Source: Fragilariopsis cylindrus CCMP1102 (Eukaryota; Bacillariophyta; Bacillariophyceae; Bacillariales; Bacillariaceae). From it: DNA of 47,078 nt. This document shows, in pieces, positions 18,672 to 41,233 of the stretch. The number at the start of each line of letters is the position of its first letter. Positions within the stretch are counted from its first letter, which is position 1. The stretch lies in assembly GCA_900095095.1 (NCBI GenBank), contig FMBT01000183.1, forward strand, positions 1-47,078. Direction: 5' to 3'. Under the pieces are notes generated by a model. The model was not told where the DNA came from. It saw only the letters and a list, made by a program, of their open reading frames with translations, and ran no database searches. The position numbers were made by a program, and so were the translations under genes.

Positions 18672-21600
18672 TTAGTCCTGTGGTACTGGATTGATAAGAC
18701 GATTCCGAAAACTTCCTTGAAGTAAAAATGAAAATGGTAGCTTATAGCGTTTGAACATTGCAATCAAATTCCACCAAATGGTCGCCCTGACATCCCTTCC
18801 ACTTCGCCACGCAGGGTTTAGTATTTGCTCTATACTATCACTAGTTCCAATGATATGACTGAGTTCTTTTCTCAATACCCAAGGCTGTTGAGTTCATGAT
18901 AAAAATTAACAAAGAAGAAGAGAAGGAGTTAGATAGGAAGAAAAAAGAAGGAACGATCATTCATTGATGCTGTGGTACGCTCGTAAATGAATTGAATATA
19001 GTTGTCGAATTAACTTACAGAAAGAAACTCGCAATACAGAGGTGTACCTGGACCCTGAGAGCCTTCGAATGTAGGAGAAGAGCAGGAAACTTTGAATCGT
19101 GATACAAATCGGTGACTGCATAGTGGGCAGGAAGTTGTGAAGTCTTGGAAATCACGCTGCTGCCAACCAGAAACGATATCCTCTTCTTTCATAATATTTG
19201 AACACGAAGGACATGCATCACCATACGTGTCGATGAAAATATCAGGATAGAGAAAATCCAAAAGGCTCTCACCTAATACAAGTTGTTTCTTTAGTCGGTC
19301 AGATAGAATTTCTGTTTGAATCATTGATGCCTTCTTATTTCGTCTTCGCTTCTTTTTTTTCTTAGTTCTTGAGTTCGTCAAATTTGATGCAAAGAATTGA
19401 AGAAAAGCAGCAGAAGTCGCATGTTCAATCGATAGTTCTGAGCCATTGTCTGATAACCCATCACTGCCAACACTTTCTTCGTCCGATGGTACCTTCATAC
19501 CGAAAATATTTCTTTGGGAATCGCCTTTCATCTTGTTAAGATTCTTCTTCAGAAAGAGAGAGTAGGCGTCAGATTTAGGATCTCCACTCGGAAGATTTTT
19601 GCTCTCCTGATCATCTCTGCTCTGTGCAAATGAAGCTACGAAGAAGGCAAGTACGTCACTATTCGCCACCAGACCATCGCGTTTCATAATCTCGATTAAT
19701 TCGAAAGCTCTTTTGGTATCCCCGCATCTTCCACAAGCTTCCATCAACGATTTGAAAACGTCGGGATCAGTCCTTAGACCACGCGTCTCCATATTCTGAA
19801 GAGCATCAAAAGCCAAATCAAGCTGAGCTACCGCAACTGCCCTTATTTCTTCATATTCCGCCAATGCTTCGTCATTGTCAAGAAGGCTTCGATCACGACA
19901 AACTCTAGTTGGATCAAGTGATAGAGCAAAATTCGACATCGTGTCGTACGCCGCTTGAGCACCTGTGTTCAGATCAGGACATGGAGATTTACTAGTCATA
20001 TATGAAATAGCATCATCAATTGCGGCTTCTCCACCGGGACAAACAATTCCACCGCCACCGCATAACCCCATCGTGAAGTCTGTCGCAATGTTTGACTGAG
20101 AAGAAGCGACGCTCTCGCCGTTGCGAATGTCGGTAGATTCAGCTTCATCCTTCTGGACACCTTGTTCTGCAGTCTTTTCTCGTACAACTTTTGAGGTTGC
20201 TACCGGTATCTCATTTTCTATCTCATCTCTCTTTGATTGATACTCTTGCCACTCCCGTCCAATAATCGCAGAGTAGGCAAAGAAAAATACGGTGAAAGAC
20301 ATGCCCTCAGGAGAGTAATCGTAGTCACTCCCATAAAAATTGGCGAGATCAGCACTTTTGTCGACAGAATAATTCTTCTGCAACTGTTTTACCAGCGAAG
20401 CTTGACGGTCAAATTCTGCCGTAATCATGCCTGGGATTGGACGAGGACGACAAAACAGTGACGAATCGAATTTTTCTGGCCAAGTTTCGTATATGAAAGG
20501 AGCTTCTTCAAAAAGATCAGAGGTATTTGGTTCCACAGCAACGAAAGTCTCGAGCTGTTTGTGTACTTTGGCACTTTGAAGAAAAGGGGTATGCACCTTT
20601 TTTAGTTTCAACCGGCTACGGTTTAGTTTTGCATCAATACTTTGGTCAAAGAATATAATATCGGGTAGTTCTGGACTGTACAACCGTTTTGTGATAAAAT
20701 CATCGAATTGTTGGGTCGAGCATAGTTCTGACAGTATAAGAAGTATTCTGATTTCTGGGAGGTGATGAAACTATCCGTGTCAAATCTGTGGTTCTTGCCC
20801 CATGACAACCAATCCTTTGAGTCTGGGGACGACGACGATTGAAGGTCTAGCTTAGACTTATCGGGGACATGAACGCATTTTCGGTAATCCTTCATATGGC
20901 CACAAAAAATCGCAAGAAAGCTTCCTGTAATCGATCCCATTGATTTTGTTCCCTATCGTTTATCGTGTCATCCGACAAATTCTCTGAATCTGGAGTATAT
21001 TGCAAATTGAATGCTTGATCCAACGTTTGAAGTTTTTCCCTCCAAACTCGTTCCCCCTTTTCTTTCGCTATTTCTTTGAAAGCGCACTGACTGATCTTAT
21101 TTTGAACAAATTCTTGGTATTCAGTTTCAAGACCTCTGCCTTTCCAGAATAGATGCCCAGCTATCTCTTGTAGACTATGCTGAAGCTTCGACCATTTCTT
21201 CCCTGGCACAGGCGGCAATTCCATCGTCCGCTGACCAAACATGATACTATTTCGATCCAAGTCGACAACTATCGCTTCGTCACAGACAAATTTTTGTACA
21301 TTCATCCAGTTATCACGTGTTACTCCACATAGGTAGGGAACTAGCAATGGAAAGAAAAGAAGAAAAAATTGTGAAGTTAGTATGAAGTATCGAACATACC
21401 ATTTACAAGAAGTACCTGCAAGACGTTGCTTAGAATAAATTGACGTACCCGGAGCATCTAAGATAGGACATAGAAATTTAGGAAGCAATGGTACATATAG
21501 ATGACTCCATTTCATTGGGTACAATAATGAACAAAGAATCTCTGAACAAACCGTCAGAATAGAATGTTGACTCGACACTAAAATGATTTTTCGTTCCATA

Positions 21601-23024
21601 GTCAAGCAATACCAAAGATGTAAAATATTTTCAATATCAAGACAATCGAAGAGTATCTGATACGGTAGGGCCACGTATGCAATCGGTAACTTCGCTGGCG
21701 GGGACCAAAATCTAATAACAGAATCAAGGATGCTTATCTTGACTTCAAAAGATCCTGGAGGAGGTGCAGGAATTTCCATACAAAGATTCATCACATACCG
21801 TTCAATGGGAGCTTTCATACAGTCTGTGCTTGTTGCTAGACGATATAGTTGAGCAAGATATTCCCGAAATGCAGTAACATACGGCCATATTGATAAAAGA
21901 CATAAGCACTTTGGAATGTATAACCGCTTGCCTTCTGAATTAACACTGACTTCAATACCGGCTTCTCCCACAGTTGCAGAATGTAGTTTTTCATTATTTT
22001 GCCAGGGTGTATTATCCGTTGGTTGGTATTCTTCATATATTGTCAAGCATGTTCCATATACTTTCCGTCCCTTATCATTCGTCATAACAAAATGATGTGC
22101 ACTGGGCATTCTATATTCGGAGGGTTGTATTATATCTCCCACAGGAAAACAAAATTGTGTCACCATCGGATTTAATGGATGATCTGAATGATCTTCTAAT
22201 GGAAATCTAGCTGTAATTTTTGGTGCGAATGTGTAGGGATTCTTATCTCCGCTATAAATACTTGTATCTGGCATATGTATATTTTCACTTTCTTCTTCTC
22301 CCTTCTCCACAATATTTCGATTCCATTTCTCTCGAGGTGTCGGTGGTGGTGACAGTAAAGTGGGAGACGACGACGGCTCTTCTTCTTCTTCTTCTTCTTT
22401 ACTTTCATCATCTTCATAATGACGATTCTTCGGCGAAAGGGTATGGTTTATTGCGTGATCAGTTCCAGTTTTTTCGTCGTTATCAACTACATCGTTAAGT
22501 GATCGACCAATTCTCTTGGGTGATACCCCTTCGTTATCTTTGTCGTTGTCGTGTCTTGTCTTACTATCGTTACTCGAAGTGTATGTTTGTTTCTGGTTGG
22601 CAGATACTGCCTGGGGACGTTTTTGGACCGGAGTTCTTAGCACTTGAATCTGATCATCTTTATTTGTTGCGGCAGCAGCAGCAGTTTCCCATCTAGGATG
22701 ACAGCTAACTACGATAAAATATTCGACTAATCGTTGAACAGAAACGGCATTATCTATCGATTCTTCGACAGTAACTTTTCGTCTTAACTTAAGTGGTGTA
22801 AGTTTAGGAGATGGTATATTGTTACTATTTTTTCGCTCTTGTGGCTGTTGTTGTTGCTGCTGCTGCTCTTTTTGCTGAGTTGCCTTGATCTTCGTTTCGT
22901 CCGCTGGAGTGGATGTCGATGATGCACGACTTGTCATTGAGCTACCACTGCCTAATTTCGACGGAGAGACATGATGTTTAGTATCTTCAGCGACAACGTC
23001 ACCAGCATACTCGGTTTCGGTCAT
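18672..23024 (-). CDS. DENND4/Crag-like DENN-domain Rab exchange factor (two single-base frameshifts)
   Basis: Exons on the minus strand are 23024-21449, 21340-19019 and 18884-18672, with GT-AG introns of 108 bp (length divisible by three, so the frame stays open through it) and 134 bp. A Ser/Gln-rich N-terminus precedes the DENN module. The uDENN part includes RKVYGTCLTIYEEY. The cDENN part has RKIILVSSQHSILTVCSEIL and DAP joined to VPYLCGV across the intron. The dDENN part has AFLRFFVAI, KDYRKC and FDDFI. The frame slips by one base near 20897 and near 20741; adding a base at each gives 1,370 residues. Downstream are PPR-like helices (DPDVFKSLMEACGRCGDTKRA), a CPSC/CPLC zinc motif and SPWVLRKEL. 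That order is typical of DENND4/Crag proteins, which activate Rab10-class GTPases in secretory traffic. Confidence 0.87.
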
Positions 23025-24051: not shown

Positions 24052-24104
24052 CCAGTAGATATTCTAAGTGCGTACCCGCGCGCTAACTGCGTACAAGAGG
24101 AGAC
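24052..24104 (+). repeat. Left terminal inverted repeat of the transposon
   Basis: The first 24 bp match the right end with one mismatch. After an insert of about 17 bases the match resumes at the GAGACACCGA word. Target TA immediately precedes it. Confidence 0.88.
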
Positions 24105-24662
24105 ACCGAATGTGCCATCTCTATTAAGCATCCGTTAACATGCTCCAATCACTCTATGATATTAGATACAATTAGAGATAACACATAAACGAAGCATGCT
24201 ATAGAAGGAATAAAGTTTATATTCGATATTCATGTCTGTATAGATAGGTTACTACCTTGGTTCTTTTTTGGCGTTGAATTATTCAAAAAATCCGGAGAGA
24301 CACCAAAAAATATTTTGCGCGCCACTCCATGCGCTATTAGCCAATCAGAATCCACCATTTAAATTATTTTTCCATCTCCTATCGTCATTAACAGCCTATC
24401 GTTGATACGCTTTCAACCAAAATTTCCTTATTGCACATACTTCATCTCCTATATCAATCAATATTTGAGTAGATTCAAAGATGATTGAGTGGTAGAAAGT
24501 TACGAAAAATGGTGGAGAACCCACCGGAAGGTCATGGTCTACAGGTATAGCGTTGGTTAGATGTGAAATGGACAAGAATTGAGGAAGGAAAAGCTGTATT
24601 TCCAGTTCTCTTTTTCTTATCATAAAATAAAATCGATTATACAACAACAACAACAATCAATC

Positions 24663-25544
24663 ATGGAGGAATCCAAAGGACTTAATCAACTAACTGAAGG
24701 GTGGGCTTCATGGAGTTATGTCGATAGTCCTCCACCTTCTGTTGCTTCTGTTCAATCTGGTGTTAAAGATTACATTCCAGGACAAAAAACCCCAGAAACA
24801 GAACTGACTGTATCTTCTTCTTCTTCTTATGTAGCTGGTAACTTTCCTATTCCTTCCACTATCTTCTATGACGACGCTTCGGTAAAGACGGTAACGACAC
24901 TAACAGAGTACGAAGCGGTTGGTATGGTAGTTGGCTTTGTCAATGACAAGAAGAGGAAGGCAACTACACCACCTGTTGCTTCTAACAAGAATCCAATCAA
25001 GTACAATGACGTTGAAGCTCTTGACGCGTTCGACGGTCACTTGTACAAGAACTTAGATATTTGTATTGGTGCTCCCTTGGATCATGATACTTGGAACTTA
25101 TATGGTACTATCTTGGTACAAGTTACTGAGTACATGGAAAATAGACCTTGTACTCAATGTGGTAATATTGCTTGTACTGAAAAAACTATGAACACATACT
25201 CACTTGTCATTGCCAAAAGGTTTGGTATGATTAAAAAGGATGGTCGATACGCTCGGGGTTGGGCGGACATGCTTAATAATCGATACTATAGAACTGACTA
25301 TCATCTATTCCATCAAATGTTAATCAAGTCAGAAGATAAACAACCACCAGGCAAATGTTTAAAGCAACTCCTCACAGAGTTATTCCCTGCTCCCAAGCAT
25401 TTACGGGCTGAAGGAAAGCTTTGTAGCAACCATTTTCTCAACAACAACCCTGCCCGGTTTGTATTCCATGAAGAATCAATGGATGCGTTCTTTCCACTTG
25501 ACGACAAGTACTTTGTTAATGGATCATTTAAACTAACTATTTAA
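24663..25544 (+). CDS. Transposon accessory protein of unknown function
   Basis: 293 residues from the ATG at 24663, inside the left half of the transposon and convergent with the transposase. The N-terminal third is Ser/Pro/Thr-rich and contains WASWSYVD. The C-terminal two thirds look folded. They include an aromatic-rich region (LDHDTWNLYGTILVQVTEYM), a small Cys cluster (CTQCGNIAC) that might bind metal, and a basic segment with KRFGMIKKDGRYARGWADM. The C-terminus, LDDKYFVNGSFKLTI, is followed by a repeat of its last 14 coding bases. I recognise no family. Its location suggests a role in transposition or its control, or a captured host gene; neither is shown. Its frame is fully open, which argues for selection within the element. 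Confidence 0.75.
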   Translation: MEESKGLNQLTEGWASWSYVDSPPPSVASVQSGVKDYIPGQKTPETELTVSSSSSYVAGNFPIPSTIFYDDASVKTVTTLTEYEAVGMVVGFVNDKKRKATTPPVASNKNPIKYNDVEALDAFDGHLYKNLDICIGAPLDHDTWNLYGTILVQVTEYMENRPCTQCGNIACTEKTMNTYSLVIAKRFGMIKKDGRYARGWADMLNNRYYRTDYHLFHQMLIKSEDKQPPGKCLKQLLTELFPAPKHLRAEGKLCSNHFLNNNPARFVFHEESMDAFFPLDDKYFVNGSFKLTI

Positions 25545-25909
25545 ACTAACTATTGGTCCTATGTAATAACGAAATGAAGACTTGAATGCATGTATGTATT
25601 AGTTATTATCAATCGAGTCCAATCGAATAACTAAATTAAAAAAAATATTATATATCAAACTCAACAACTCAATCACCAACTTACTTGACAGTAGTAGTGC
25701 CTACTTTAAAAAAAAAATAGTTAAGATTGATAATAGGATTTTCTTTTCAATCACACATTGGCTCTCTCTGGGTGTAGAATAAAAAGCAATAGAGGTACGG
25801 TCTTGTTTCGATCGAATTCTAACTACAAACACTATAGTAAATATATCCTATACAGTACTACTACTATTACTACTTATAATTTCGTTACTTCTATAATTAT
25901 TCTACAGAA
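25545..25909. other. Convergent spacer between the two transposon genes
   Basis: 365 bp, strongly AT-rich, between stop codons on opposite strands. Probably both 3' UTRs. It includes an A10 run near 25708. No other feature is seen. Confidence 0.6.
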
Positions 25910-28900
25910 CTAGATCTCCGATATTTGGGTATTCCACACTTGACCACCATGATAGTTCGAATCTGCACACTCGTCAGTCATAGTTAGGGTAAATAAGCTT
26001 TGAGCTGCTTCAAAATGCTCAACAGAAGCGTCAGTTCTTGGCAAATCACTATTCACCCTTGACAAAGCTTCTATATCAATTTCTTCCACTTCCACATCAT
26101 TATTAGCTTCAACAACAGTAATAAAATTGTCTGGTTTTACTGGTGGAGATGGCTCGTTCATAATATAATAAATACTATCCCAGGCAACTCGTCTTTCTGC
26201 AAGAGTGTTTGGTATCTTCGATTTTTGCTTCACACACCCAAGTTGTTTATATCTAATCAGATCTACATAATCATCATTCAACAACCATCGACTTGCTTTT
26301 CTTAAACCATTAACAATCTTATTCCTAATAGGACCATTTGAGACCCCATACAATACACCACCCTCAGCATGTGCAGCATAATGATGTTTAGATTTCTCCA
26401 TTGCAGCTTTACCACTAATATATGTTTTCATATCACGAATATACTGTTTAGAAGCCTTTTTTGCCAACTTATCTAACATAGCGATTGTTTTTCCTTCTAC
26501 AATCGAGAGTGTGGTTTCCCCAAGACCCCAATGACCTTGACTAGTCAACCCTCCAGAAGTTAGTCTGCCAGTGAACTTATCAATCAAATTCGATCGATCA
26601 GAATTGTCTAGTCGCTGTTGTTGTACTAGTTTTTTCTTTTCTTGGTGATGCCTTTCTCTTGCTACATTTCGATTGGTGGATGTGGTAAGCACACTTAAAT
26701 AGTGCTGTGCTTTTCCTTCTGACACATTCATACCAGCCAATCGAGTAGGATCAGCTCGATTCGTTGCAGCCATAGCTATCTGTGATTCACTCTGTGATTC
26801 ACTCATGTCAGATACGGTCAGTTGAGATAAAGTCTGTTGTGATAGAGTCTGTTGTGATTGAGTCTGTTGTGATAGAGTAACCTTCTTCGACTTCAAAACT
26901 TCAGGATGAGATAAACAGCCACGATTAAGGGGATTCCAACCGCGTTGTAGTATTGCTTTTTTGTTACCCTCCACATTGCCAAAACTCCTATCGAATACCT
27001 TAGACATGATAAGTAGAACATGATGTCTGCTGATTTTGATGCGCTCACAGTTAATCCGTTGATCAACTCGAATAACTTCTTTTGCTTCTCGTGTAAGATT
27101 CTTATACATTCCATTCTGTTCAGAGGAATCACCAACTTGCCAGTAGGCAGTACCATTTGGCAAACCAAGACAAATATTCCACTTATGATTCGCTCCAGCC
27201 ACAACCTTCCCTTCTTCATCACGATTGTTAATATACCTCATGAATTCAGGACTTAGACGCGAGCCATGCCCATCTAAGATCGCACCAGGAGGTGGATCAC
27301 CAGGTACTCGCGGAACTAGTGCATCGTATAGTCGTAGGACATCCACTAGAATTTCTGGAGTGATACCACCGCTAGCTGAACGCCGTACAAGTGTTGGTAT
27401 TTCAATACCATTGACAGTACATATAGGACCTCCTGGAAACACTTTGCCTGGTCCTGTGTTGAGTTGCAGCAACTCAACCGAAAATACACTACCAGCCAAC
27501 ATCTCTTTCATTTTCTTTTCTTTATCAAGATCATTATTGATATTCTTTATTTCATTAAACATAGTATCATCACCAATCCATAATGCATTAACATCTAAAC
27601 CATGTAATTCGGAATAACTAAGTTCTCCATCTTTTTCTATAATAACTAAACAAATTGCCGGATTTCCATCTAATTTCGTCCATACCATGGTCGTAAAATG
27701 ACAATCACTAGTACATGCTGGCAACTTTGCCATAACTCCTTTTGTTGAGCAGCGTTTCTTGTTGCCAGCTGACATCTTATCTTTTGACATGTTAGTATTT
27801 GTTCCACACTCATCAGCAGCCATGAACAATTCCGGATGTTTGAATCGATGATAAACTGGTTCACCATATTGATCAGGATCATCTATATCACAAACTTCAC
27901 CATTTCCATTATAATATAAAGGTTGTTCTAACACTTCAGCATACCCCCATTTAACAAGCAGACCATATACGTTGTCGTACATCTCCACAAACTTTTCGTA
28001 TGTACAGTGCTCAGTTCGATAAAAATCAACATTACTTGACCCTTTATATTGAACCTCCTTCCCCCATCTCCTAATAAACCCATCGAACCACCCTTTGCCT
28101 AGATTGGCTGAGGTAGGCTTGATACCATGTTCGATATAGCGATCTCGCAAATCAACTTGATGTCGTAGTTTCCATGCAATCACATCATCTTCCACAGGAG
28201 TGCCACTGACATAGGAGTTGGCATAATCAATTATTTCTCTCTGATTCATTGTGTCATTACAATCTGTTGATTGATTTATGTACATTACAATTAAAGGTTC
28301 TGCATCTAGCATTGGGCTCTTCATACCAGTTCCTTTTACTTCTAATCGATCGCGACAGATTCTACTGTAGATAGTAGTGGAAGCAACGCGATATGTATCA
28401 GGATCTAATTGGTACTCGTGCTGTTTGTTAGCAATAAGCTGCTTGAGGGTCATCTTGTTCGTATGATCAGTTGGTAGTAGCTTGTTTTCAACCCATGACA
28501 GTGCTATATCATTCTTCATTTGTGAGAATTTTTTGTCAACTCTTGCTTTGCTTTATTTGTGGTACCAATAGGACGACCCGATTTGCCTGACACAGTCGTA
28601 GGTGAAGTTGGTGCCACAGTTGTCTTGTTGTTGTTGTTATTCAATTCTACTAAAGGCAAAGCAATGTTAATTCTATTTTTATTTATATCAGACATATTTC
28701 TCCACTTCATTTTTACTTTATTTCCATTCTCTAGCCATTGTTGTGTTTTACTATACTGTTTAACTAGCTTAGCAAGTGAACCGAATGGTGGTTCACCATT
28801 CTTCTTCTGCTTTGGCTCGCACTGTCGCCATTTCGTTAGGATTTCTATGATAATAGTTTGAATATGATCTTGTGCTATTTGATCATTTGGAAAGTGAATG

Positions 28901-29028
28901 CCCTTTTTTTGTTGGTTATTTACCTTTTGCTTTGCTTGTTTTGCTGCCGATTGTTTCCCTCTTTTGATAGTAGTGCGAGAAGAAGGTAATGAACGTCGTT
29001 GTTGTGCTCTATTCGATGCTTTAACCAT
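25910..29028 (-). CDS. Transposase with AT-hook, CENP-B-type DNA-binding and DDE domains (one frameshift)
   Basis: Two open frames meet at 28516-28519, where stop and ATG overlap as ATGA. One base added in the adjacent A run fuses them into 1,039 residues. The first frame (170 residues) is basic and ends with an AT-hook-like GRPIGTT. In the second, GWFDGFIRRWG at residues 143-153 is the CENP-B-type helix-turn-helix signature. The candidate DDE triad is D236 (AADECGTN), D416 (ILDGHGSR) and D464 (QVGDSSEQNG), in the order and context of the pogo/CENP-B DDE_1 family. A short SQQT repeat lies near residue 550. It should cut and paste the element by binding its inverted repeats. Translation by termination-reinitiation at ATGA is an alternative to a sequencing error. 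The catalytic residues appear intact. Confidence 0.85.
26815..26880 (-). repeat. 15-bp minisatellite inside the transposase gene
   Basis: Three to four copies of a 15-bp unit code for SQQT(Q/L) pentapeptides. They sit after the catalytic domain, in a Ser/Gln-rich linker, so the frame is kept whatever the copy number. Confidence 0.8.
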
Positions 29029-29537
29029 GATAACAGCTTAACAATCACCATCTTTGTTCAAATAAAAAGAATAATATTATGAATCATATTGTAGTAACTG
29101 AGTAACTGATTTAGAACTGGGGTTACAAGCTAAAGCTTGAAATCGCATTGCTTTGAAGACCTGTCACGTGACAGTTCTTCAAAACGACTCATCTTAATAG
29201 AGGAGGAACGCATCTTAATAGATGATCATGTCGTTGTTGTTGATGTTCCATTTGCCTTTTTTCAAAAATAAAATCAGAATTTTATTAGGTGTCACTGTTT
29301 GTACGCGCGCTCAGTACACTTTTCTACAGGGCGCAAACTGCGTAAATATGAAATTAATTTCAAAAAAAGGCAAGTGTAACGTTGACAAATAACCGCGTAT
29401 TAGTGATTTGATTAAAAAATGTATATATACAAAACAACACATTTTAATGTGTTGATGAAGACTGTATAATAGGATAGGCTAGTAAAGCTATCTAGTTTGA
29501 TTTACAAACCGCTTATTATAACGACAAAAAAAACCAG
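29029..29537. other. Transposase 5' region
   Basis: About 510 bp between the transposase start and the right inverted repeat. It contains the palindrome at 29161-29174, a direct repeat of CATCTTAATAG at about 29191 and 29210, and GCGC-rich words at about 29304-29343 resembling the left end. It is presumably the transposase promoter plus subterminal binding sites. Confidence 0.55.
29161..29174. promoter_or_regulatory. Perfect 14-bp palindrome with CACGTG core
   Basis: CTGTCACGTGACAG reads the same on both strands and lies 133 bp upstream of the transposase start codon. A CACGTG core is the classic bHLH/bZIP site in eukaryotes, so it may recruit a host factor, or be an autoregulatory site. Function is inferred only from sequence and position. 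Confidence 0.5.
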
Positions 29538-29578
29538 TCGGTGTCTCTTCGCGCGTACGCACTTAGGATATCTACTGG
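29538..29578 (-). repeat. Right terminal inverted repeat of the transposon
   Basis: Inverted match to the left end, about 41 bp including the inner GAGACACCGA word, followed by the target TA at 29579-29580. Confidence 0.88.
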
Positions 29579-30626
29579 TACTGTAGTATGTTGTCCATGT
29601 TCATCGAGAAGAAGTGTTTTTTATTTTTTGGCGCGACCGATTTTGATGTGTTGTCCGTGTCGAGCCCGACACACCACCGTTGACGGACAGAAAAAGCGAG
29701 ATGGCGCGAAAACAAGAAATGGCAATGCAGCGCGCCCTTCGAAAATATTAAAAAGTCAATTTATGCATTTTTAATTTTGCGTCGCTCGTCGTGCGGAGAA
29801 CGATACACCGCGGCGCTACGCGATTTTATGTGAGTTTGTAAAGTTGTTGTGTTGTGTTGTTGTATCGACAAAGACAGTTAATAAAAAATACATGTCTATA
29901 AAAGACGAATTAAATTGATTGTGTTCAGGTAGGTCCTAATAGTTGTCGGACGATGTTTAAAGAGTTTTAATTGATGAAATTGTTGTTATCTTGGTCCCAA
30001 AAAATCCGAAACAACGATACGTGCATGCATGAGATTTGAGTTTTTTTGCCGAAGGATGATAATAATGCTGCCCTCGAGCGGCGAGCGTTTTTAAAATAAA
30101 ACATTATTTATTTTTGTGTTATTGGATGCAGTTCATATTATATATCGAGTCACATATCACATTATCTGCTCCCTTAAAAAACAATTCCACCTCGAGACAC
30201 GTGATGTAAATTGATAAGGAGACGCAAATATACTTCATTATATTTTTTTCATCGTACTATTACTATTGATTTTGTTTTAATTCATTTGATTGAATGTATG
30301 TTATTATTAGTTCTAAGAATAATCTGTACTTGATCGGAGATGCATTACTTTACAAAACATAATAACTCGATTGTGCTACTCAATACGACCATACGCCTCG
30401 CTTTGAATTCATCCCGCAAACATGCAGAACTAACTCAAACTCATATACATCAATACATCATCCATCTCACACTTTTCCTTCCTTTTCATTCGTTTTTTTG
30501 ACTGACCGTTCACAATACTTGACTTGTATTATTATTCGTTAAAATAGATAGAAACACATCGGCAACTTTTGGTCTGATTTGATTATAAACGATTACGGAA
30601 GTAGTCCATTCTAATAAGTTAAGACA
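29579..30626. other. 5' region of the CHD remodeller gene
   Basis: About 1 kb between the transposon and the CHD start. Its first 250 bases are richer in CG dinucleotides (GGCGCGA, GCGGCGC). They include a small hairpin-forming motif GTGTCG-AGCC-CGACAC at 29657-29672. An open frame across it at 29541-29774 starts inside the transposon end and is not supported. The remainder is AT-rich. Likely promoter and 5' UTR. Confidence 0.5.
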
Positions 30627-33600
30627 ATGTCTGATGAAGAAAGAGGAGGAGGAATAGGAGGGGGTCGTCGCTCTAGACGAGCCAAGTCTAAGCCTATTGA
30701 CTACGCCAAGGAACAAGAATTCAGTGATGAAGAAAATCTATTTGAAGACGCAGACAAACCTGCACCTGTTCCTACCAACGTTGCTCCCAAAAAAAGACGT
30801 GCCAAAGGAAATCGTAAATCCAAAGGGAAAAAGCAGCAGCAGCAAGAAGGTGACTATCGCGGCAATGACGGTATGGATCAATACGAAGAAGAAGACACCG
30901 AAGATTATCGTCCACCGAAACCAGTTTACACCGAACGGGGTTACGACCCAACTCTTCCACCAATTCGAGAACGATTTACATTTCTACCTGAATATGAATT
31001 GGATGGGTCACCCAAAATTGAAGGGATTATTGGTAGACGTCCGGTCGATGAAAAAGAAGACAAAGAAGACAAAAATAGTGATGACGATAACAGCACCACC
31101 AGCAATGGCAACGACGACGTCGATGATGAGGAAGAAGGATCCGATGGGAAGAAAGAACGAAGTCGGCGGGGAAACGGCAATAAGGGGGGGGAAAAGTACA
31201 ATAATAAATCGCCTGCCAAAAATAAAGACAAAATCAAAGAGTCAAACTCTAATTTTATCGACTACGAGTATCTTGTTAAATACCGGAATCAATCACACTT
31301 GCACCTTGGATGGAAGACAGGTGCAGACTTAGAATCGATGAACAAGTCAGCCAAGACCATTTACCGTCGTTATCTCAAAAAGGTAGCAGCGGGACAAGAC
31401 GAAGAATTGGAAAATCCTGATATCGATCAATCTTTTGTGGTAGTACAAAAGATTCTTGCCGAAGAAGAACAGGAACTTGTATTGGAACTTTCCGATAAGG
31501 AGCTATTGGCATGGGAGAAGGAAAGGGAAAAGGAAATGGCCGAAGAGGATGAAACCAGTGAGGAGGAAGGAGAAGAAAAGAAGGAAGAAGCCGAGAAAAA
31601 GGACAAAGGTCCAAAAGAAACTACTACAAATAGTATAGAGAAAAAGGACGAAGGACTAGTAGAAACTTCTATAGACAAAAAGGACGCAATGGATGTTTCA
31701 CCCTCGGAAGAAAAAAAGGGTAAGTTTTTCAAAGTATTTTCACTTCACTACACCACACTAGCCTTAATTTTTCGTTTTTGCTCACTCACTTTTCATTTCT
31801 GTCTTAATCATGCTGTCATTCGTAATTGACGCTCCATATTATAATCTTGGTTCTTTAGATGACATAATAGACTGGAAGAAGGATGATATCGACTTTAGCC
31901 AGCTTACTATTGATCAACTCAAAATCATCATAGGCAAGGAAGAACCATATTATCCCAAATTTGAAGGATGTGATAACGCTTACCGGGATGGATTATTAAC
32001 AGAGCCCCCCAAAAAGCCTCGAGCTTCCTATCTATTCTTTCAGTGCATAATGCGCTCGTACTTTGCTATGCGGAACCCCGGTGCCACTAACGGAGAGCTC
32101 ATGACTATTCTAGGAGAAAAGTGGGGCTCCATGTCTGAAGAAAATGGCCAAGGGCCTTTTCTTGAGCTCGCGAAGGATGAAGTCAAGCTTTATGAGCATG
32201 AACGTTTTTTACTAGAAAAGGCACAAAGACCAAATGAAATGTGGCAGCCAATCCGTAGATGTCGGATGATCGTGGACAGGCTTGCACAAGACGGTTTCGC
32301 TAATATTTTCCTCGAGCCGGTAAATCTAGATGACTTTCCCGACTATGAAGAATCTATAGATATCCCTATGGATCTTGGAACAGTTCGGACGAAATTATTA
32401 TCAAAGAAGTACCAGATGCCCGAACAATTTGCTCGAGATATGCGTAAGATCTGGAATAATTGCAAGATCTACAACCGTCATGGATCTGCCATTTGGCATG
32501 TCGCTGATTATATGTCGAAACAATTTGAGCGACTCTATCATGCATGGGTGCAAGAATTTCGTGAGCGATATTTGAGATGGGCAAACCCCAGAGCTCGTCC
32601 ATGGGAACATACTTGCCGGGAGCATGATGGAAAATGCAATACCAAGGACAAAGACCTCGTACTTTGTGATCATTGTGATGCTGCTTACGGATATAAGTGC
32701 ACGACGCCTCCGCTGGACGAGCTTCCAAGTGGCATTTGGCATTGTTCCGAGTGCTCTAAAAAATTGAGATCCGTTAGAGGTGTCCGGATGCTGTCTGCAA
32801 CATCAGAGCAAGCAGCTCGGAAAAGAGCGGATCTCGGGGAAATACCCAGGCGAAAGGTGAAGCAAACTATGTATCTCGTGAAATGGGCAGGCCTGGGGTA
32901 TGAGTTTTGTACATGGGAAACGAAAGATGATATCGGGAGTTCAGATGTCATCAATGAATACCATAAACTAAACGATTCTTTTCCTGACGAAATAGGCATG
33001 CCCGAGGAGGCAGCGACAAAGATCATGTCGGCAACAGAACACATTAACAGGAAAAACGCCGGAGGTAGTACCTGTGTACCTGATCTTCGAACCAATCTAT
33101 ACGCACAAACAAGGGCCTTTCAATTTACGAAGTTTGGCTTAGATGTGCCAGAAAATGTTTGTCGAGAATGTGGACCTTTGACGAAGGCATCCCATGAGTT
33201 TTACGTTCGTGATGAACTAAGTCCTTCACATCCAAAAGAAGTTCTTGAATGTGTTTATGAAATGACGGATAGAGTCGCTTTAAAGGATACCCTCCCACAA
33301 ATGATGAAATCGGATCATATGCTTCCACCACTTCTAACAGGAGAGTATGATGTAGTCGTGCCTATTACTTCAAGGGGACTTATGATGAATGTTGGAGAAA
33401 TTAATGGTTCCGTGGCATTCCTAGGATATAGACAATTCCCGGATGGTAGCAAAGGCCCCGCTGAATTAAAGCAACTCCTTCGAGGAGCCGGGGACAAAAT
33501 TATTGCCGTGGACGGTGTCAGCACCGTAAATAAATCTTTCAAGGATATAATTGGTATGCTCCGTGAGAGCGGCAAGAACACATTCGCAATCATGCGCTTC

Positions 33601-36600
33601 TTGGAAAATAGACTTACTGGTGTTGAAGGGGATTATACTAGTTACGGAAATCGCGGAAGATACTCGATTGTAGAACTTAAGAAAAAGCTCAGCAATGATC
33701 GAAAGCGGCTTTTGGTACACCGAGATATGAATATTTTTGAGGATGATACTAAAGAAGGAAAGGAAACAACGAAGGAAGGAAGTGGTTCTGACGAGGAGGC
33801 AGATAGCGAAGGAGAGTTTCAGCTAGATAGCGATGACGACGAGGAAGAAGAAGGGATTGGTAATACATCGATGGTCAAGTCCGAATTAGATGACTTAAAA
33901 GCGTCGATCGAAGAAGATGTGAAATTAGAAGAGCCGTCGAAGATCGAAGAAGTGAAGAAAACGCCAACTGAGGCAATGACTAGCTCACCACCACCACGAG
34001 ACAAAACCGATACTCCTCCGGCAAATGACACCGGAACACCAAGGAGTCCATCCTCCGATGAAACTTTCCAATCGTTGACGATTCAATCTGAAAAAACTCG
34101 TTCACTTGCGTCTCGCCTATTGAACCTAGATATTGGCTACAGCAGCGACGAGGGTGGAGACGAAGATTGTTTATTCTACTTGGATGGTCTCGACGATACT
34201 TTTACATCGAAAGATTCGTTACATAAAGTATCAGTAAAACCTGCAACGGAGGTAAATGAAGAAGAAAATATAATACCGGTTAAACGCAATGAGTTTTCTT
34301 CACTCGGAGACAGAAGTAAGTTGTTGGCATCTGTTGCTATTACTTCTTGCCTTCCCGATGCTGATGACTTCGATGAAAATTTCCCCTTTCCGTCAAAGAA
34401 GGAAATTGCAGCGAAGGAAGCAGTTAAGGAAGCCGATGCCAAAAAGGCCGAAGAAGAAGCCATCACACCTAGTAGTCCGGAAAAACTTGCCAAAAGATCT
34501 ACCGTGAAGATTGAACAGATTGCTACGGAGACTTCTGAGACCCTTAACGTGTGGGCAAATGTTGAATCTGCTGCCGCAACTCTTCAGCTGCCTCTAAGTG
34601 AAATTAAGAGAATTTTACGAGGAGAGTTGGACGAAGATGATTTCAATGACGAAGTAGGAGGTTTTCGTTGGCAGTATGCTGCCACAAACGCGTTAGTCAC
34701 TGCTGGTGAAAGTAAAAGAAAGGGAAGCAAGCAAAGTAAGGAGGCTTTAATGGAATTTCGAGATAAACTTTATGACCCAACCGAGCCCCATCCTTACAAG
34801 AATGGTAATAAACTTCGGGACTATCAGGTTGAGGGAGTGAATTGGTTAGCAAGTACTTTCTACAAAAAACAAGGTTGTATCTTAGCCGACGAAATGGGGT
34901 TGGGAAAAGTGAGTATTTTCGGAAGTACAGTAATACGTTTTTTTAAAGTGGTTATATATATATATATATATATATATATCTTTTGTTGTTGTTGTTGTCG
35001 TCGTCTGATGTTCGATCTCACCAAATATTCTCGTCTTTGGTATACTTTCTCGCATACTTTTGTTGTTTTTCTAGACTGTTCAAATTGTCTCTTATTTGGA
35101 ACATTTGCATCGTGTCGAAAAGATTACTGGACCCTTCTTGGTAGTTGTGCCATTATCGACCGTAGAACATTGGAGACGTGAATTCGAAGGTTGGACAGAT
35201 ATGGTTACTTGTGTGTATCATGACAGACAACGTCAATGGCGTGATGTTCTTCGCGAATATGAATGGTATTATGAAGATAAGCCTCGCAGCCCTGAATTTC
35301 TGAAATTCAGCGTCCTCGTAACAACATATGACACATTGATCGGTGATTTTGATGTGATTGGTCAGATACCATTCCGGGTAGCTGTAGTCGACGAAGCACA
35401 TCGACTAAGGAATCAAAAAGGAAAACTACTTGAATGTATGAAAGAAATAAGCGCGAAAGGGACTATACAACACGGCTACCAAAGTCGTGTGCTCATGTCT
35501 GGTACACCCCTCCAGAACGATCTTAGCGAGCTGTGGACGCTTTTGAATTTCATTGAACCATTCAAATTCCCAGATTTGGACAATTTTTATATCATTATGG
35601 AAATATGAGAAGCAGGGAACAGGTTGAAAGCTTGCAAGCACAGATATCTCCATTTATGCTGCGACGAGTAAAAGAAGATGTGGCGAAGGATATTCCAGCA
35701 AAAGAAGAAACTGTGATCGATGTCGAGCTGACATCTGTTCAGAAGCAATACTATCGTGCTATTTTTGAGCGCAATCACGCCTTTTTGAATATGGGTAATT
35801 CTCGTGTGACCGCACCTAAGCTGATGAACATTCAAATGGAACTTCGAAAAGTGTGCAACCATCCCTGTCTTCTAGATGGCGTTGAACACAGAGAACAAGA
35901 GCGTGTGTTCAAGGAATTTCTAGAAGAGGGCAAGTTTGATGGAAAATCACCAGAGGAGCAGCAGTATATAATGAATGAGCATCTACAGGTACAGACCAGT
36001 GGGAAAATGGTGTTGCTGGACAAGCTTCTTCCAAAACTTCGACGAGAGGGACATAAGATTCTTATATTTAGTCAAATGGTAAAAATGTTGGATTTGATTT
36101 CTGAATACTGTGAATTCCGGAATTTCCCTCACGAACGACTTGATGGTCGTGTTCGAGGTGCGGATCGACAAAAATCGATCGATCGATTCAATACGGAAGA
36201 GAATGCATTCCTATTTCTCCTTTCAACTCGCGCGGTGGCGTTGGTATCAATTTGACAGCTGCTGATGTTTGTATCATTTTTGATAGTGATTGGAATCCGT
36301 AAGTACTGAGATGCTTTTTTAGACTTTAAACACAAGCATTATCGAGCCATCGAGAAGGGTTTAAGAAAAAACTCACCATCCTTTGTTCCATTTCTTCTTC
36401 TTTGTGATCTATCACGCTACAAACAGACAAAATGATGTCCAAGCTCAGGCTAGATGTCATCGAATTGGACAGACTAAAGATGTACGAATTTATCGTCTCG
36501 TCACCAGCCGTTCTTTCGAGGAAGAAATGTTTGACAGGGCAAGTAAAAAGCTGGGTCTAGAACAGGCAGTTCTTGGAACGTTCGGACAAGATGAGGACGA

Positions 36601-39194
36601 TGATAAGCCAACTAACAAGGAAATGGAACAATTGCTCAAAAAGGGTGCATATGCTCTATTAGCGGATGATAATGACGAGATTGTAAAACAATTCTGCGCG
36701 GATGATATTGATACTATTCTAGCAAAGAGAACCCGTACACGGGTCGTTGAGGGTGCAAAGACCGCCACTTGGTTAAACAAGCAGGGAATGAATGTTACCA
36801 AGTCCAAATTTTCCGCCGACTCTAAGTCAGTCGGCCTTGATATGGATGACCCACTTTTTTGGCAAAAGGTCATGCCAGATTTTATTACTCCCAATCTTAT
36901 GGTAAAGCAACTCGAAGATTTGTCTAATGAAATATGTGGAACCACCAAGAAAAAAGGACCCGGCAGGGCAGGGGTCGTGGGAGGTGGAAAAAGAAAGATA
37001 AAGAACAAGAGAGCGACGTAAAAGAGATGCCGACGACTCAGCCAACACCACAGAAAATTCCAATTTAGATGCTGCCTTAGATACTGTTAAGGATGCAGTG
37101 GAAGAAAAATCCAAGGAGGACGAAGATTCGAAAGATGATACGAATATCGATTCCAATTCCAATTCAATTCTGAAACTGTAAAGAAAAATGACGATGAAGG
37201 AGATGGAGACGACATCGATGACAATGAAGAAGAAAAGAAATTTCACATCACAAAGACTCAGAAACGAAAGATCGCGAAATTCATGTCAGATCTCAAGAGT
37301 TTGATGGAAGGTCTATTGGATGAGGCAGAAGATGACAGTCTTTCTAGCGAAGACAAGGCTAGCGGTCTGAAACTGTTGCTAACTATTACAGTGAACGAGA
37401 AGATGTTTAATGATGACCAAAGGCATTTCGCCAAAGCAACATTGAAACGCCTCGAGGGAAACAGAAGGCGGCGATGTAGAACGTCAGAACCAGGGGGAAA
37501 TCAAAATCAACGATCCTCGCCCACGAAACAATCATCTCGTGATGACGATTTTGAAATTCGAGAAGAGCTTAGGATTGTTAGTACTAAGAAGATTAAAAAA
37601 CGCAGAAGGAAGGGCGGCGAAGACGAAGAACAGGAAACAAAACGCAGGAAAAAATAATTCTCTAGAAGTCGGAGATGATGGCTACAAGATTCACTCTGAT
37701 GATGAAGCTGATTGGTCTGATGTAGGGGAAGACATTTACGGTCAATCAACAAAGAAAAAAGCAACAATTTCGAGGAAAGAGGCACGTCGTAGGCGCCAAT
37801 GGGCCGCAGATGGTGACGCCGCCATTGCCGCCGGACGCCCATGGCCGGCACTGCCTCGAACCGAGGTTTCGAAGGTTCTCAGATCTTTACTTGAGGAAGT
37901 ATTGAAGCACGACGAAGCCAAGGGTGGTATCTTTTCTGAACCAGTTCCCCGTGACGATTTTCCTGAATATTATGAGCAGGTTAAGACCCCAATGGATTAT
38001 GGTACGATGAAGAAGAAGTTAGACAATGGAGAATATCGCTCGGGGCAGGCGATGCAAAAAGATTTCCGACTTGTCATGCAGAATTGCCTTCAATTCAATG
38101 CGCACGAGTCAGATATCTGCCAGGAAGCACGTCAGCAGGCACTTATGATGCCCACTCAGTTAAGAGAGGCTGCGATAAAGAACGATTTATTTCTAGCTGA
38201 AGATGGTTCGGTCCTTCACATTGTTGATGAGAAGAACGGAAAAGATAAAGATGACAGCAAAACACCCGCTTCTGCCAAGAAACGAAAGAAGAGAAAGAGA
38301 GATGATTCTAAAGATGACGACACTACAGGAAAGAAGAAAGGAAAGAAAAGGGTCAAAGACGAAGAAGCAATCGACTTGGGTGTTGAGGAGGATGACGTAC
38401 CCTTATTTGATCTTCAATTGAAGAAGAAGAAACCAAGAATTAAGATCAACCTTCGGGAAATTATGCAAGCCGAAGAAGAGGAAGGAAAGATAGTCACCGC
38501 TGACGGTAATCTCGGCAAAGAAAAACCACCTGCTACTAAAACGCCGGCTTCTCGTAAAAAGAAAGGTCGCAAGGCTATTGCTAAGGTCGAAGAGAATGGA
38601 GATGAAGATGAAGTTAAAGTACCGGTACCGACACCGTCGAAACGGGCAAGGAATGCAAAGAAAGACACAACACCCCAAAGAAAAGCACCCGCGTCACGCG
38701 GCAGGTCGTATGATGAAGACTATCTGAATCCAGCACTTCTCAAGACAGAAAGAGAAAATCTTGGGGGCGATAATTCTTTTGCAGCAGCAAGGAAGCTTTT
38801 TATCAGTAAAAGAGCATGGGTTTTACCATCTCCGATTACGCCTGACAAACTTCGTGACGTCGCATTAGCGACTTTTAAACAGATGGAAAAAATTGATCGT
38901 TATGGTGTCTTTGCAGAACCTGTGTCTGATTCCGATGCTCCTGACTACTCAGATATTGTGAAGAATCCAATTGATCTTGCTACGATGAAGACGAAATTAA
39001 ATAACGGAGAATACGGAGAAGGCACAAAAGGTGCCTCCAAGCTTTATGCAGACTTCCTACTCATGTTCGACAATTGCCGCTTGTACAACGACGACGATGG
39101 AGAAGTAACCGAAGAAGCAGCAAGAATTATGGCATTGCTACCTGAGATCTATGGCAGCTCGTGTTCTACGGCGCTTAAGAAGCAGAAGAAGTAG
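30627..39194 (+). CDS. CHD-type chromatin remodeller with HMG, bromo, PHD, PDZ-like and SNF2 domains (several frameshifts)
   Basis: Exons are 30627-31719, 31859-34908, 35075-36298 and 36427-39194, joined by GT-AG introns of 139, 166 and 128 bp. Domains by position: chromodomain about 31250-31350 ([16 protein letters not shown]); HMG box 31990-32220; bromodomain 32230-32560; PHD finger 32610-32770 ([13 protein letters not shown]); second chromodomain 32870-32990 ([15 protein letters not shown]); PDZ-like domain 33360-33605; SNF2 ATPase 34790-36600 with DEMGLGKT over a splice site, DEAH and HRIGQT; two bromodomains 37865-38170 and 38835-39165. The frame shifts near 35586, 36234, 36960-37025 (two), 37165 and 37650. 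Single added bases, or two at the last site, restore continuous domains and about 2,713 residues. It should slide or evict nucleosomes using ATP, guided by acetyl- and methyl-lysine readers. Acidic linkers abound. Confidence 0.88.
34953..34979. repeat. TA microsatellite in CHD intron 2
   Basis: About thirteen TA units followed by a TGT/CGT trinucleotide stretch, wholly inside the 166-bp intron that splits the Walker A motif codons. Confidence 0.85.
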
Positions 39195-39235
39195 ATAACA
39201 AAGAGAACTTTAATTAAGATAAAAAGCTATATACA
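39195..39235. terminator. 41-bp convergent 3' junction
   Basis: Only 41 bp separate the CHD stop codon from the stop codon of the opposite-strand orphan. The two 3' UTRs and polyadenylation sites must overlap. No strong AATAAA signal is obvious; ATTAAG and ATAAAAAG words occur. Confidence 0.4.
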
Positions 39236-41233
39236 TTATTCACCAAGCCCATTTTCTTTCAATTGATCGAGCAAGTCGTGTAACTGAGGACCAATTTTTC
39301 GAGCTAGTTTCACACCTTTCTTTTCTTTCTCCTGATTTATGTTGTTTTCAGAAGACGGGGATATTTCATCTTCGTTCTCAACGACTACTACTGTTGAACA
39401 TTCGTCTTCTTTGATGGCAGTACCAAGAATAATACCAGAATATCCATTCAAAATGCCATCGGTTTCGTGTTCTGGTTCAGGAATGTTTTTTACCTCAGCA
39501 GGGAAAGAAACATTGATACCTTCATCGACATCTCCATTGAAAGGTCTGACGCCGATGCCGATGTCACTCTCACACTCAGATTGTGTGGAAGTAACATCAT
39601 ATGTCTCCATCTTACCCATATTCGAAGATTCAATTCCATGTTGCGATGATTTTTTCTCGTTGCTGTCTTCGATGGAAAAATCAATTTTGCGAGCAACCCT
39701 AATCTTTTTGTCGGCTTTGGGGAATTTTCTCCATCGTATCTCGGAATTTTCTATACTTACGGAAGGCAAAAAGATTGATGGTGTTGCGCAGTTTGCTTTT
39801 CGAGGAGTTGCAGCCGATAATAATGCATCTGTATCTTCCAAAGCCTGATGATGCAGTTGGAATTCGGCTACACTGGACTCAATTGATTTACAACTGTAAC
39901 GATTTAGAATCCCAACACCATAATCATCGTTGTTGTCTACATCGACAACACTTCCATTGCCCAAATCTGATATGACACTCGAATTGTCGTTCATAAGAAT
40001 TGATTTATCGTCTTGTTCGTCGTCGTCAATTTCATTGGCATCAATGTCATTATCACCAAAATTGCATCTCGGCGCCGTTATTGCATCAACTTTTTTGCTA
40101 TCAATCGAATACGCACTCATAGTCTTTAACCGCTGGGCTGTCTTCTGTTGATACAGATTTTTTTGAGCACGTAATGCAGGTTCTGATAATAGGGATAGAC
40201 TCGATTGACTTTTCTGATCGTCTTCATTATCTAGAACGTTTTTGTCTTCAATTTCCTGATGATCAAATTGATTCATTGAATTTAGTGCGGAAAAGTCGAC
40301 GTACCACGTAGTCGAATCATTCAAGGAAACATTTTCACGCCCCACATTCTGTGATTTGATAGTAACTTCCTTCTGTTGTTGATGAACTTGTTCCTTAATT
40401 TCACTGAATTCACCCCAAAGTTCCCTATATCCGGCAATATCTTTTCGCCTATCCTTAATCTTTTCCTCCTGCCGATGCTGTTTTTGCAACGAATGCGCCT
40501 GTTGAGCCTGTGTTTTGATTTTGTTGAACGTAGAAATAGTCAAAGGATTGACAGTGGAAGAATACGGTACTGGTGAACTAAATTTTGCATTCTTTGGAGG
40601 AGCCAAAAGTGGTGGGTGGTCAGGTTTAGACGCCATCGGGTAACTTCTGAGGTGATTATCATTATCAGTGACAATGTCTGTGGAAGAACATGGGTACGCT
40701 CCGATTTCAGTATCATTATGGATGGTAGTACCCGTAGGATTAGGAGGTGTACATAACTGATGGAATTGATCACTACCAACCTTCTCCTCGCGATCATTTC
40801 TAATTTCCTCACTAGAGTATGTCGGTTCCTCATCTTCGTTATCTTTTTTTTCGCCAGTTTTAGGTTCATCGAAAGTAAATTGAATATCTTCAATATGATC
40901 TTGGTCATCGAATTCTTCGTCCGAAGGATATCCATCATCCTCGTCTCCAACAACAAGTTTATTCCCCTGTGGGGAGAAGAATGGAGAAGTGATTTGCGAG
41001 GATGGGGATATCATTTGCGTTACATCTGTCTTATCTGATGGGGAAATCAACGCTAAATCATATGCGACTTTTAGCCCACCAAAAGTCGAAGACCTACTTG
41101 GTGTTGATTTACTGGGTAGGTGATGTAGATGATGATTCTGGCTCTTTTTAACAGCGTAAACATCACCATCACCACCAGCGCCAACGCCAACATCGCTCGA
41201 CTGACGTTCCAGTTGACTATGACAGACTCCCAT
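39236..41233 (-). CDS. Acidic orphan protein with predicted N-terminal lipid anchor
   Basis: A single exon of 665 residues without frameshifts. I recognise no family. The N-terminus MGVCHSQ has Gly2 for N-myristoylation and Cys4 for palmitoylation, a typical dual membrane anchor. The rest is hydrophilic and largely disordered. It has a His-rich patch (HHLHHLPS), acidic tracts (DEDDGYPSDEEFDDQDH), a Gln/Lys-rich coiled-coil candidate around RELWGEFSEIKEQVHQQQKE, and a closing segment GPQLHDLLDQLKENG. No transmembrane helix is visible. A membrane-tethered scaffold is a reasonable guess. It is convergent with the CHD gene and divergent from the lipase gene. Full openness over 2 kb supports a real gene. 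Confidence 0.75.
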   Translation of the reverse strand: MGVCHSQLERQSSDVGVGAGGDGDVYAVKKSQNHHLHHLPSKSTPSRSSTFGGLKVAYDLALISPSDKTDVTQMISPSSQITSPFFSPQGNKLVVGDEDDGYPSDEEFDDQDHIEDIQFTFDEPKTGEKKDNEDEEPTYSSEEIRNDREEKVGSDQFHQLCTPPNPTGTTIHNDTEIGAYPCSSTDIVTDNDNHLRSYPMASKPDHPPLLAPPKNAKFSSPVPYSSTVNPLTISTFNKIKTQAQQAHSLQKQHRQEEKIKDRRKDIAGYRELWGEFSEIKEQVHQQQKEVTIKSQNVGRENVSLNDSTTWYVDFSALNSMNQFDHQEIEDKNVLDNEDDQKSQSSLSLLSEPALRAQKNLYQQKTAQRLKTMSAYSIDSKKVDAITAPRCNFGDNDIDANEIDDDEQDDKSILMNDNSSVISDLGNGSVVDVDNNDDYGVGILNRYSCKSIESSVAEFQLHHQALEDTDALLSAATPRKANCATPSIFLPSVSIENSEIRWRKFPKADKKIRVARKIDFSIEDSNEKKSSQHGIESSNMGKMETYDVTSTQSECESDIGIGVRPFNGDVDEGINVSFPAEVKNIPEPEHETDGILNGYSGIILGTAIKEDECSTVVVVENEDEISPSSENNINQEKEKKGVKLARKIGPQLHDLLDQLKENGLGE

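Follow-up and report, generated by a model that had tools for sequence, protein, structure and literature searches.

The tandem chromodomains of CHD motors are thought to restrain the ATPase of these enzymes. An oomycete protein of related layout, the 'Chromodomain-containing protein (D)', was tabulated in 2014 with the order Chromo (in brackets), Bromo, PHD, Chromo, PDZ (in brackets), SNF2 and HelC, followed by PHD fingers (PMC4030286, Table 2). Brackets in this table denote domains that are missing or non-significant in some species, the species being unspecified. In Phytophthora infestans the protein is PITG_03401, and its C-terminus is tabulated as PHD, a bracketed PHD, PHD-like and PHD. 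Here, we describe a gene of the diatom Fragilariopsis cylindrus CCMP1102 which is located on the plus strand at positions 30627-39194 of the window, i.e., the whole stretch of 47,078 nucleotides that was analyzed (contig FMBT01000183.1 of assembly GCA_900095095.1). This contig is called C490 below and belongs to an assembly of 67.9 Mb in 818 contigs. The gene is best explained as encoding a CHD-family nucleosome remodeller with several added modules, in which a cassette of three domains is probably nested within a chromodomain. We assign this joint explanation a probability of roughly 0.7. Judged from its domain order, the gene is most likely the counterpart of the oomycete protein (D). The initial annotation of this DNA had considered the combination of domains to be unprecedented. 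Since a similar order is tabulated for PITG_03401, this claim was not sustained, as far as the table goes.

Domain Order and Family Placement

The open reading frame listing together with the reading of splice sites indicated a four-exon gene at 30627-39194. The domain order of the encoded protein is chromodomain (weak), HMG box, bromodomain, PHD finger (degenerate), chromodomain, PDZ-like domain, SNF2/helicase, bromodomain and bromodomain. Pfam was run on the separate open frames and, a second time, on the intact frames of a second copy of the gene on contig C134 together with stretches including 37160-37538. This second scan of intact C134 frames and earlier omitted stretches detected no additional domain above its cut-off. 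Among the frames scanned there was no SANT- or SLIDE-type match and no PHD match downstream of the ATPase, where two bromodomains were found instead. A remodeller with these domains in this order, as proposed by the initial annotation, was borne out.

The SNF2 ATPase starts at the end of exon 2 with motif I (DEMGLGK, 34822-34908, matching positions 1-30 of Pfam SNF2-rel_dom). On C490 the SNF2 match was obtained in three pieces with E-values of 1.5e-6, 2.6e-32 and 6.7e-17, and Helicase_C gave 8.4e-11. Exon 3 of the C134 copy is unbroken and reached 1e-56 for SNF2 and 8e-20 for Helicase_C. This unbroken exon, together with four ATPase motifs that are intact by eye, argues against a protein that is mainly a scaffold or reader hub with a weak or dead ATPase. 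Such a hub would suit the many interaction modules, the degenerate PHD finger and the weak first chromodomain, but we consider it very improbable.

Comparison of the ATPase with the PDB yielded human CHD1 (2.4e-92) and yeast Chd1 (2.2e-91) as best matches, followed by CHD4 (6.3e-85), a SMARCA-type chain (1.4e-81) and chains named ISWI (from 3.5e-79). At least two other loci of the genome, C585 and C343, carry both chromo and SNF2 matches. The best single ATPase stretch among the 21 SNF2 loci of the genome was the CHD-type locus C343 with 289 bits. The next matches were L013, L017 and L016 (248-250 bits), followed by L020 and C585 (218 bits). The placement in the CHD family is based on this ranking of ATPase matches and not on a tree. 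One feature of the ranking speaks against it, namely the position of the other CHD locus, C585, below three loci at 248-250 bits.

The HMG box at 32008-32202 was clearly recognized by Pfam (HMG_box, 4.4e-9, 37.1 bits versus a cut-off of 25.4). It is followed by the inner bromodomain at 32260-32508 (7.3e-21), which aligned with BRD4 at the acetyl-lysine binding asparagine (IYN) and ranked first among the 43 bromodomain matches of the assembly. Consequently, the earlier call of an inner bromodomain, which a profile search could have overturned, is strongly supported. The two C-terminal bromodomains were found by Pfam at 37881-38132 (asparagine in QFN) and 38874-39122 (asparagine in LYN). As a pair they reached 4.9e-42 on C490 and 7.4e-42 in the C134 frames. 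Thus, all three bromodomains retain the acetyl-lysine asparagine.

The PHD finger at 32614-32754 aligned with the PHD fingers of CHD5, CHD4 and PHF12, and its Pfam match (5.7e-5) remained just under the cut-off with 23.5 versus 24 bits. A glycine replaces the zinc-ligand histidine of these three proteins (within 32665-32700), the codon being identical in C134, and the Cys4-His-Cys3 pattern of zinc ligands is not preserved. The second zinc ligand may be a histidine or a displaced cysteine. Hence the PHD finger of the initial annotation is present, but in a degenerate form.

Downstream of the second chromodomain a PDZ-like domain (GLMM...GDKIIAVDG) was assigned to 33343-33612, with approximate borders, from weak Pfam matches, a PDB profile search and relatives in the same genome. 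The Pfam matches in this stretch were below the curated cut-offs (PDZ_6 0.0092, PDZ 0.11). Relatives of residues ~487-615 of exon 2 were found on four contigs, namely C139 (two stretches, 51% and 56%), C313 (51%), C88 (38%) and C46 (39%). A profile built from the window stretch and three relatives was searched against the PDB and returned 52 rows up to an E-value of 10; judged by name, 46 of these are PDZ proteins. The best row was GRIP with 5.3e-5 for the whole chain, in which two PDZ domains are summed, and 0.13 for the best single stretch. Pfam PDZ models matched three of the four profile members at E-values up to 5, the match being below the cut-off in the member displayed. An AlphaFold model of the stretch, calculated from one sequence without an alignment, had a predicted local distance difference test score (pLDDT) of 40.5, which was too poor for a fold search. 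Overall, the earlier PDZ-like call found support from the profile search but not from the Pfam cut-offs, and we accept this predicted domain with moderate confidence.

The relatives of the PDZ-like stretch (L035, L036, L037, L038 and L039 on C139, C313, C88 and C46) are located in largely low-complexity frames. On C313 a separate frame shows a weak Myb-like match under the cut-off. If C139 and C313, and likewise C88 and C46, are haplotypes of each other, as they may be, such relatives would come from two loci.

A Cassette between the Probable Halves of a Chromodomain

Strands 2-3 and the helix of chromodomain 1 were located at 31239-31370. The Pfam Chromo match was 0.027 in context and reached 24.6 bits with a shortened loop, the cut-off being 25.1 bits. 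Its first strand may lie at ~31011, ahead of a long acidic loop. Small profiles typed this domain as a first chromodomain (58.75 versus 30.25). Strands 2-3 and the helix of chromodomain 2 followed at 32854-32967 with a strong Pfam match (8.2e-10), which covered only positions 13-52 of the profile. Two chromodomains are thus found N-terminal to the ATPase, the second one strong and the first one under the cut-off but aligned to CHD1. They are not in direct tandem, as ~415 residues with the HMG box, the bromodomain and the PHD finger lie in or between them. They become tandem once this cassette is omitted.

In CHD1, tryptophans of the chromodomains form the methyl-lysine cage that binds H3K4me3. 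Chromodomain 1 of the diatom protein reads VKY-RNQ where human CHD1 has IKW-KGW (IKWKGWSHIH), so that one tryptophan is changed to tyrosine and the other to glutamine. Because both tryptophans are replaced, methyl-lysine (H3K4me3) reading by chromodomain 1 is doubtful, and so are the 'two methyl readers' that had been proposed for this protein.

The paralogues C585 and C343, human CHD1 and yeast Chd1 supplied the four segments of a strand 1 profile, with which the missing first strand of chromodomain 2 was searched. Of the 1372 segments scored in exons 1 and 2, a stretch of exon 1 at 31428-31469 ranked first with 16.25, the next one scoring 8.25 (mean -12.8, standard deviation 5.9). The stretch immediately before strand 2 of chromodomain 2 (RGVRML) scored 0.0 and ranked 28 of 1372. 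When the upstream strand was spliced to the downstream half, the Chromo match rose to 49.6 bits over positions 2-52 of 53, compared with 44.1 bits (positions 13-52) for the contiguous stretch, 43.9 bits for the core alone and 45.4 bits (positions 13-52) for one control splice. With the cassette omitted and the acidic loop shortened, the alignment to the tandem chromodomains of human CHD1 crossed the junction (3.7e-7). This sequence also matched HP1-type chains, from approximately query residue 91 onward. In C585 and C343, read by eye, the first chromodomain is followed by a linker and a strand-1-like stretch, which a long loop separates from strand 2. These results suggest that the stretch at 31428-31469 is the probable first strand of chromodomain 2, separated from its downstream half, and that the HMG-bromo-PHD cassette was likely inserted into the loop that connects strand 1 to strand 2. 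The HMG box and bromodomain had initially been placed between two chromodomains. They do lie between the two chromo matches, but they probably interrupt the second domain.

Several observations weigh against such an insertion. The spliced sequence exceeded the contiguous stretch by 5.5 bits and the single control by 4.2 bits. The type of the downstream half was ambiguous, with 53.25 for a second and 54.5 for a first chromodomain, when scored with small profiles that typed 8 of 8 reference segments correctly on leave-one-out, with a margin under 2 points in two cases. In the alignments displayed from the PDB search, exon 1 alone matched CHD chains over chromodomain 1 only (best 0.038, 6 rows) and showed no part of a second one. 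Finally, the downstream chromodomain follows a PHD finger like the PHD2-chromo1 unit of CHD4 and CHD5, and both of these proteins matched the PHD finger as well as the chromodomain. The cassette would then be flanked by two whole chromodomains, the second one resembling the CHD3/4/5 unit and using RGVRML as its own weak first strand, while the upstream stretch would be a leftover linker. We regard this arrangement as rather doubtful. It is opposed by the score of RGVRML relative to the upstream stretch, by the restriction of the Pfam match on the contiguous stretch to positions 13-52 and by the poor alignment to CHD4 between the PHD finger and VKW. We therefore retain the interrupted chromodomain as the likely arrangement.

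Gene Structure and the C-Terminal Bromodomains

Exon 1 (30627-31719) is an open frame from ATG and encodes the charged N-terminus, chromodomain 1 and the probable first strand of chromodomain 2. Intron 1 (31720-31858, GTAAGT...TTTAG) is T-rich and showed no coding signal when scored over 31722-31858. Exon 2 (31859-34908), whose frame is unbroken on C490, contains the HMG box, the inner bromodomain, the PHD finger, chromodomain 2, the PDZ-like domain, a linker and ATPase motif I. It is followed by intron 2 (34909-35074, GTGAGT...CTAG), by exon 3 (35075-36298) with the SNF2 ATPase (DEAH, SGTPLQN) and the first part of helicase C, and by intron 3 (36299-36426, GTAAGT...ACAG). Exon 4 (36427-39194) encodes the end of helicase C, a charged linker and the two bromodomains.

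The copy on C134 is 99.57% identical across 17.5 kb and presumably represents the other haplotype. Between 30400 and 39400 the two contigs differ in length by a single base at nine places and by eight bases at one. The frame of exon 3 is broken at 35584 and 36234 on C490 only; in C134 it is open over 409 codons, and these two breaks were therefore taken as probable assembly errors. The C134 copy, for its part, has interrupted frames in exons 1 and 2, and these breaks look like assembly errors as well. Exon 4 contains one further frame change on C490 only (37649). Those near 37017 and 37165 are present in both contigs, which is a difficulty for a single gene. This agreement is not independent evidence, because the contigs differ at one place only over 36497-39400.

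Taken at face value, these changes would split the locus into neighboring genes, the first for a CHD remodeller that terminates at 37019-37021 (TAA), the second for a protein with two bromodomains that begins at 37283 (ATG). This alternative is favored by the fact that both contigs contain the stop codon as well as the subsequent frame, which is open over 684 codons in C134, and by the C-terminus tabulated for the oomycete counterpart, which consists of PHD fingers and is listed without bromodomains (PMC4030286). However, the 264 bases at 37019-37282 have an exon-like, A-rich base composition with a T content of 0.19, whereas the three introns range from 0.33 to 0.48. In codon log-odds these bases reached 0.62 bits per codon at 37019-37155 and 0.53 bits in the next frame at 37160-37282, against a maximum of 0.25 bits for non-coding pieces, which doubled as the background model and scored lower for that reason. 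The non-coding set (n = 36) combined the three introns with 33 windows that overlap one another across 29029-30626 and partly cover a transposon end; the coding model was built from uncurated long open frames at other loci of this genome. Moreover, no in-frame ATG precedes 37283 in the two coding-like frames. The coding-like scores in two successive frames and the lack of such an ATG favor one gene. The nine single-base length differences between the contigs also speak against two genes, as does the possibility that the contigs are not independent witnesses. Two adjacent genes thus appear unlikely. Most simply, the DNA can be read as a single gene in which the two frame changes are either base-level errors or genuine length changes within a linker. 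An intron at 37019-37180 as their cause was rejected, since this stretch is A-rich and coding-like and the three introns are T-rich.

Upstream of the gene, a 5.5 kb insertion at 24053-29578 is absent from the C134 copy. It carries terminal inverted repeats (CCAGTAGATAT...), an apparent TA target duplication and an 869-codon minus-strand frame without a Pfam match at E-values up to 0.05. Probably, this is a DNA transposon that is polymorphic between C490 and C134. Neighboring frames of the window matched DENN (20892-23024), Sua5/YrdC (15700-17208) and elongation factor G (12247-14187), all on the minus strand, and FYVE with ankyrin repeats (1581-3872) on the plus strand. Elsewhere in the genome, six bromodomain matches are located on one strand within less than 4 kb (C288:18976-22619), perhaps a polybromo-like gene of the same diatom. 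The assembly is recognizable as that of a diatom by 27 silicon-transporter matches (best 1.1e-226), a number in which every exon piece and copy counts separately; one of 14 control genomes gave a match, which was below the cut-off.

Proposed Function and Comparison with Known Systems

In the proposed mechanism the split chromodomain would hold the HMG-bromo-PHD cassette beside the ATPase. By analogy with their domain families, the bromodomains would dock onto acetylated histone tails while the HMG box grips DNA of the nucleosome or linker. The motor would thereby be recruited to acetylated, active chromatin and perhaps be freed there from autoinhibition by its chromodomains. The PDZ-like domain might serve as a scaffold that binds the C-terminus or an internal peptide of a partner. 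That these functional steps are drawn from domain families has to be counted against the overall explanation. A more specific proposal is an acetylation-gated remodeller, in which the nested cassette, on binding acetyl-lysine and DNA, would act mechanically on the chromodomain gate of the ATPase; the cassette arrangement would be ancestral to stramenopiles, the two C-terminal bromodomains having been added in diatoms. This is conceivable, but we lean against it at present. A lineage in which a cassette reading acetyl-lysine and DNA has split a chromodomain would offer, in diatoms, a natural experiment on the control of CHD motors by histone marks. The domain order may also mark a stramenopile CHD subfamily outside the classifications based on human and yeast proteins.

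Further relatives were sought in several sources. A scan of viral contigs with exon 2 gave 9 pattern matches and no relative, and a search of plasmid DNA found nothing. Apart from PMC4030286, none of the titles listed in searches of the open-licence literature pointed to such a protein.

Polybromo and BRG1-type proteins resemble the diatom protein in having several bromodomains, and in the PDB exon 2 matched polybromo-1 best. The ATPase match to BRG1 was much weaker, with ~219 bits compared with 313 bits for CHD1. To our knowledge, polybromo and BRG1-type proteins have no chromodomains. The CHD3/4/5 (Mi-2) proteins share a PHD finger adjoining a chromodomain, and the ATPase of CHD4 is among the closest, as given above. 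As far as we know, Mi-2 proteins carry two PHD fingers ahead of both chromodomains and possess neither a bromodomain nor a PDZ domain. CHD1 of human and yeast provides the closest solved ATPases, and its tandem chromodomains align with the diatom protein once the cassette is omitted. We know of no HMG box, bromodomain, PHD finger or PDZ domain in CHD1.

The tabulated oomycete protein (D) agrees with the diatom protein in the order Chromo-Bromo-PHD-Chromo-PDZ-SNF2-HelC, in which chromodomain 1, the PHD finger and the PDZ-like domain of the diatom protein are below the Pfam cut-offs. The two differ in that protein (D) is tabulated without an HMG box and with a cluster of PHD fingers at its C-terminus (PMC4030286), whereas the diatom protein has an HMG box and two C-terminal bromodomains. 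Measured against that table, the diatom gene encodes an unusual CHD-type variant whose core module order is already in print and which is set apart by its HMG box and C-terminal bromodomains. What is new here is probably the nesting of the cassette within chromodomain 2.

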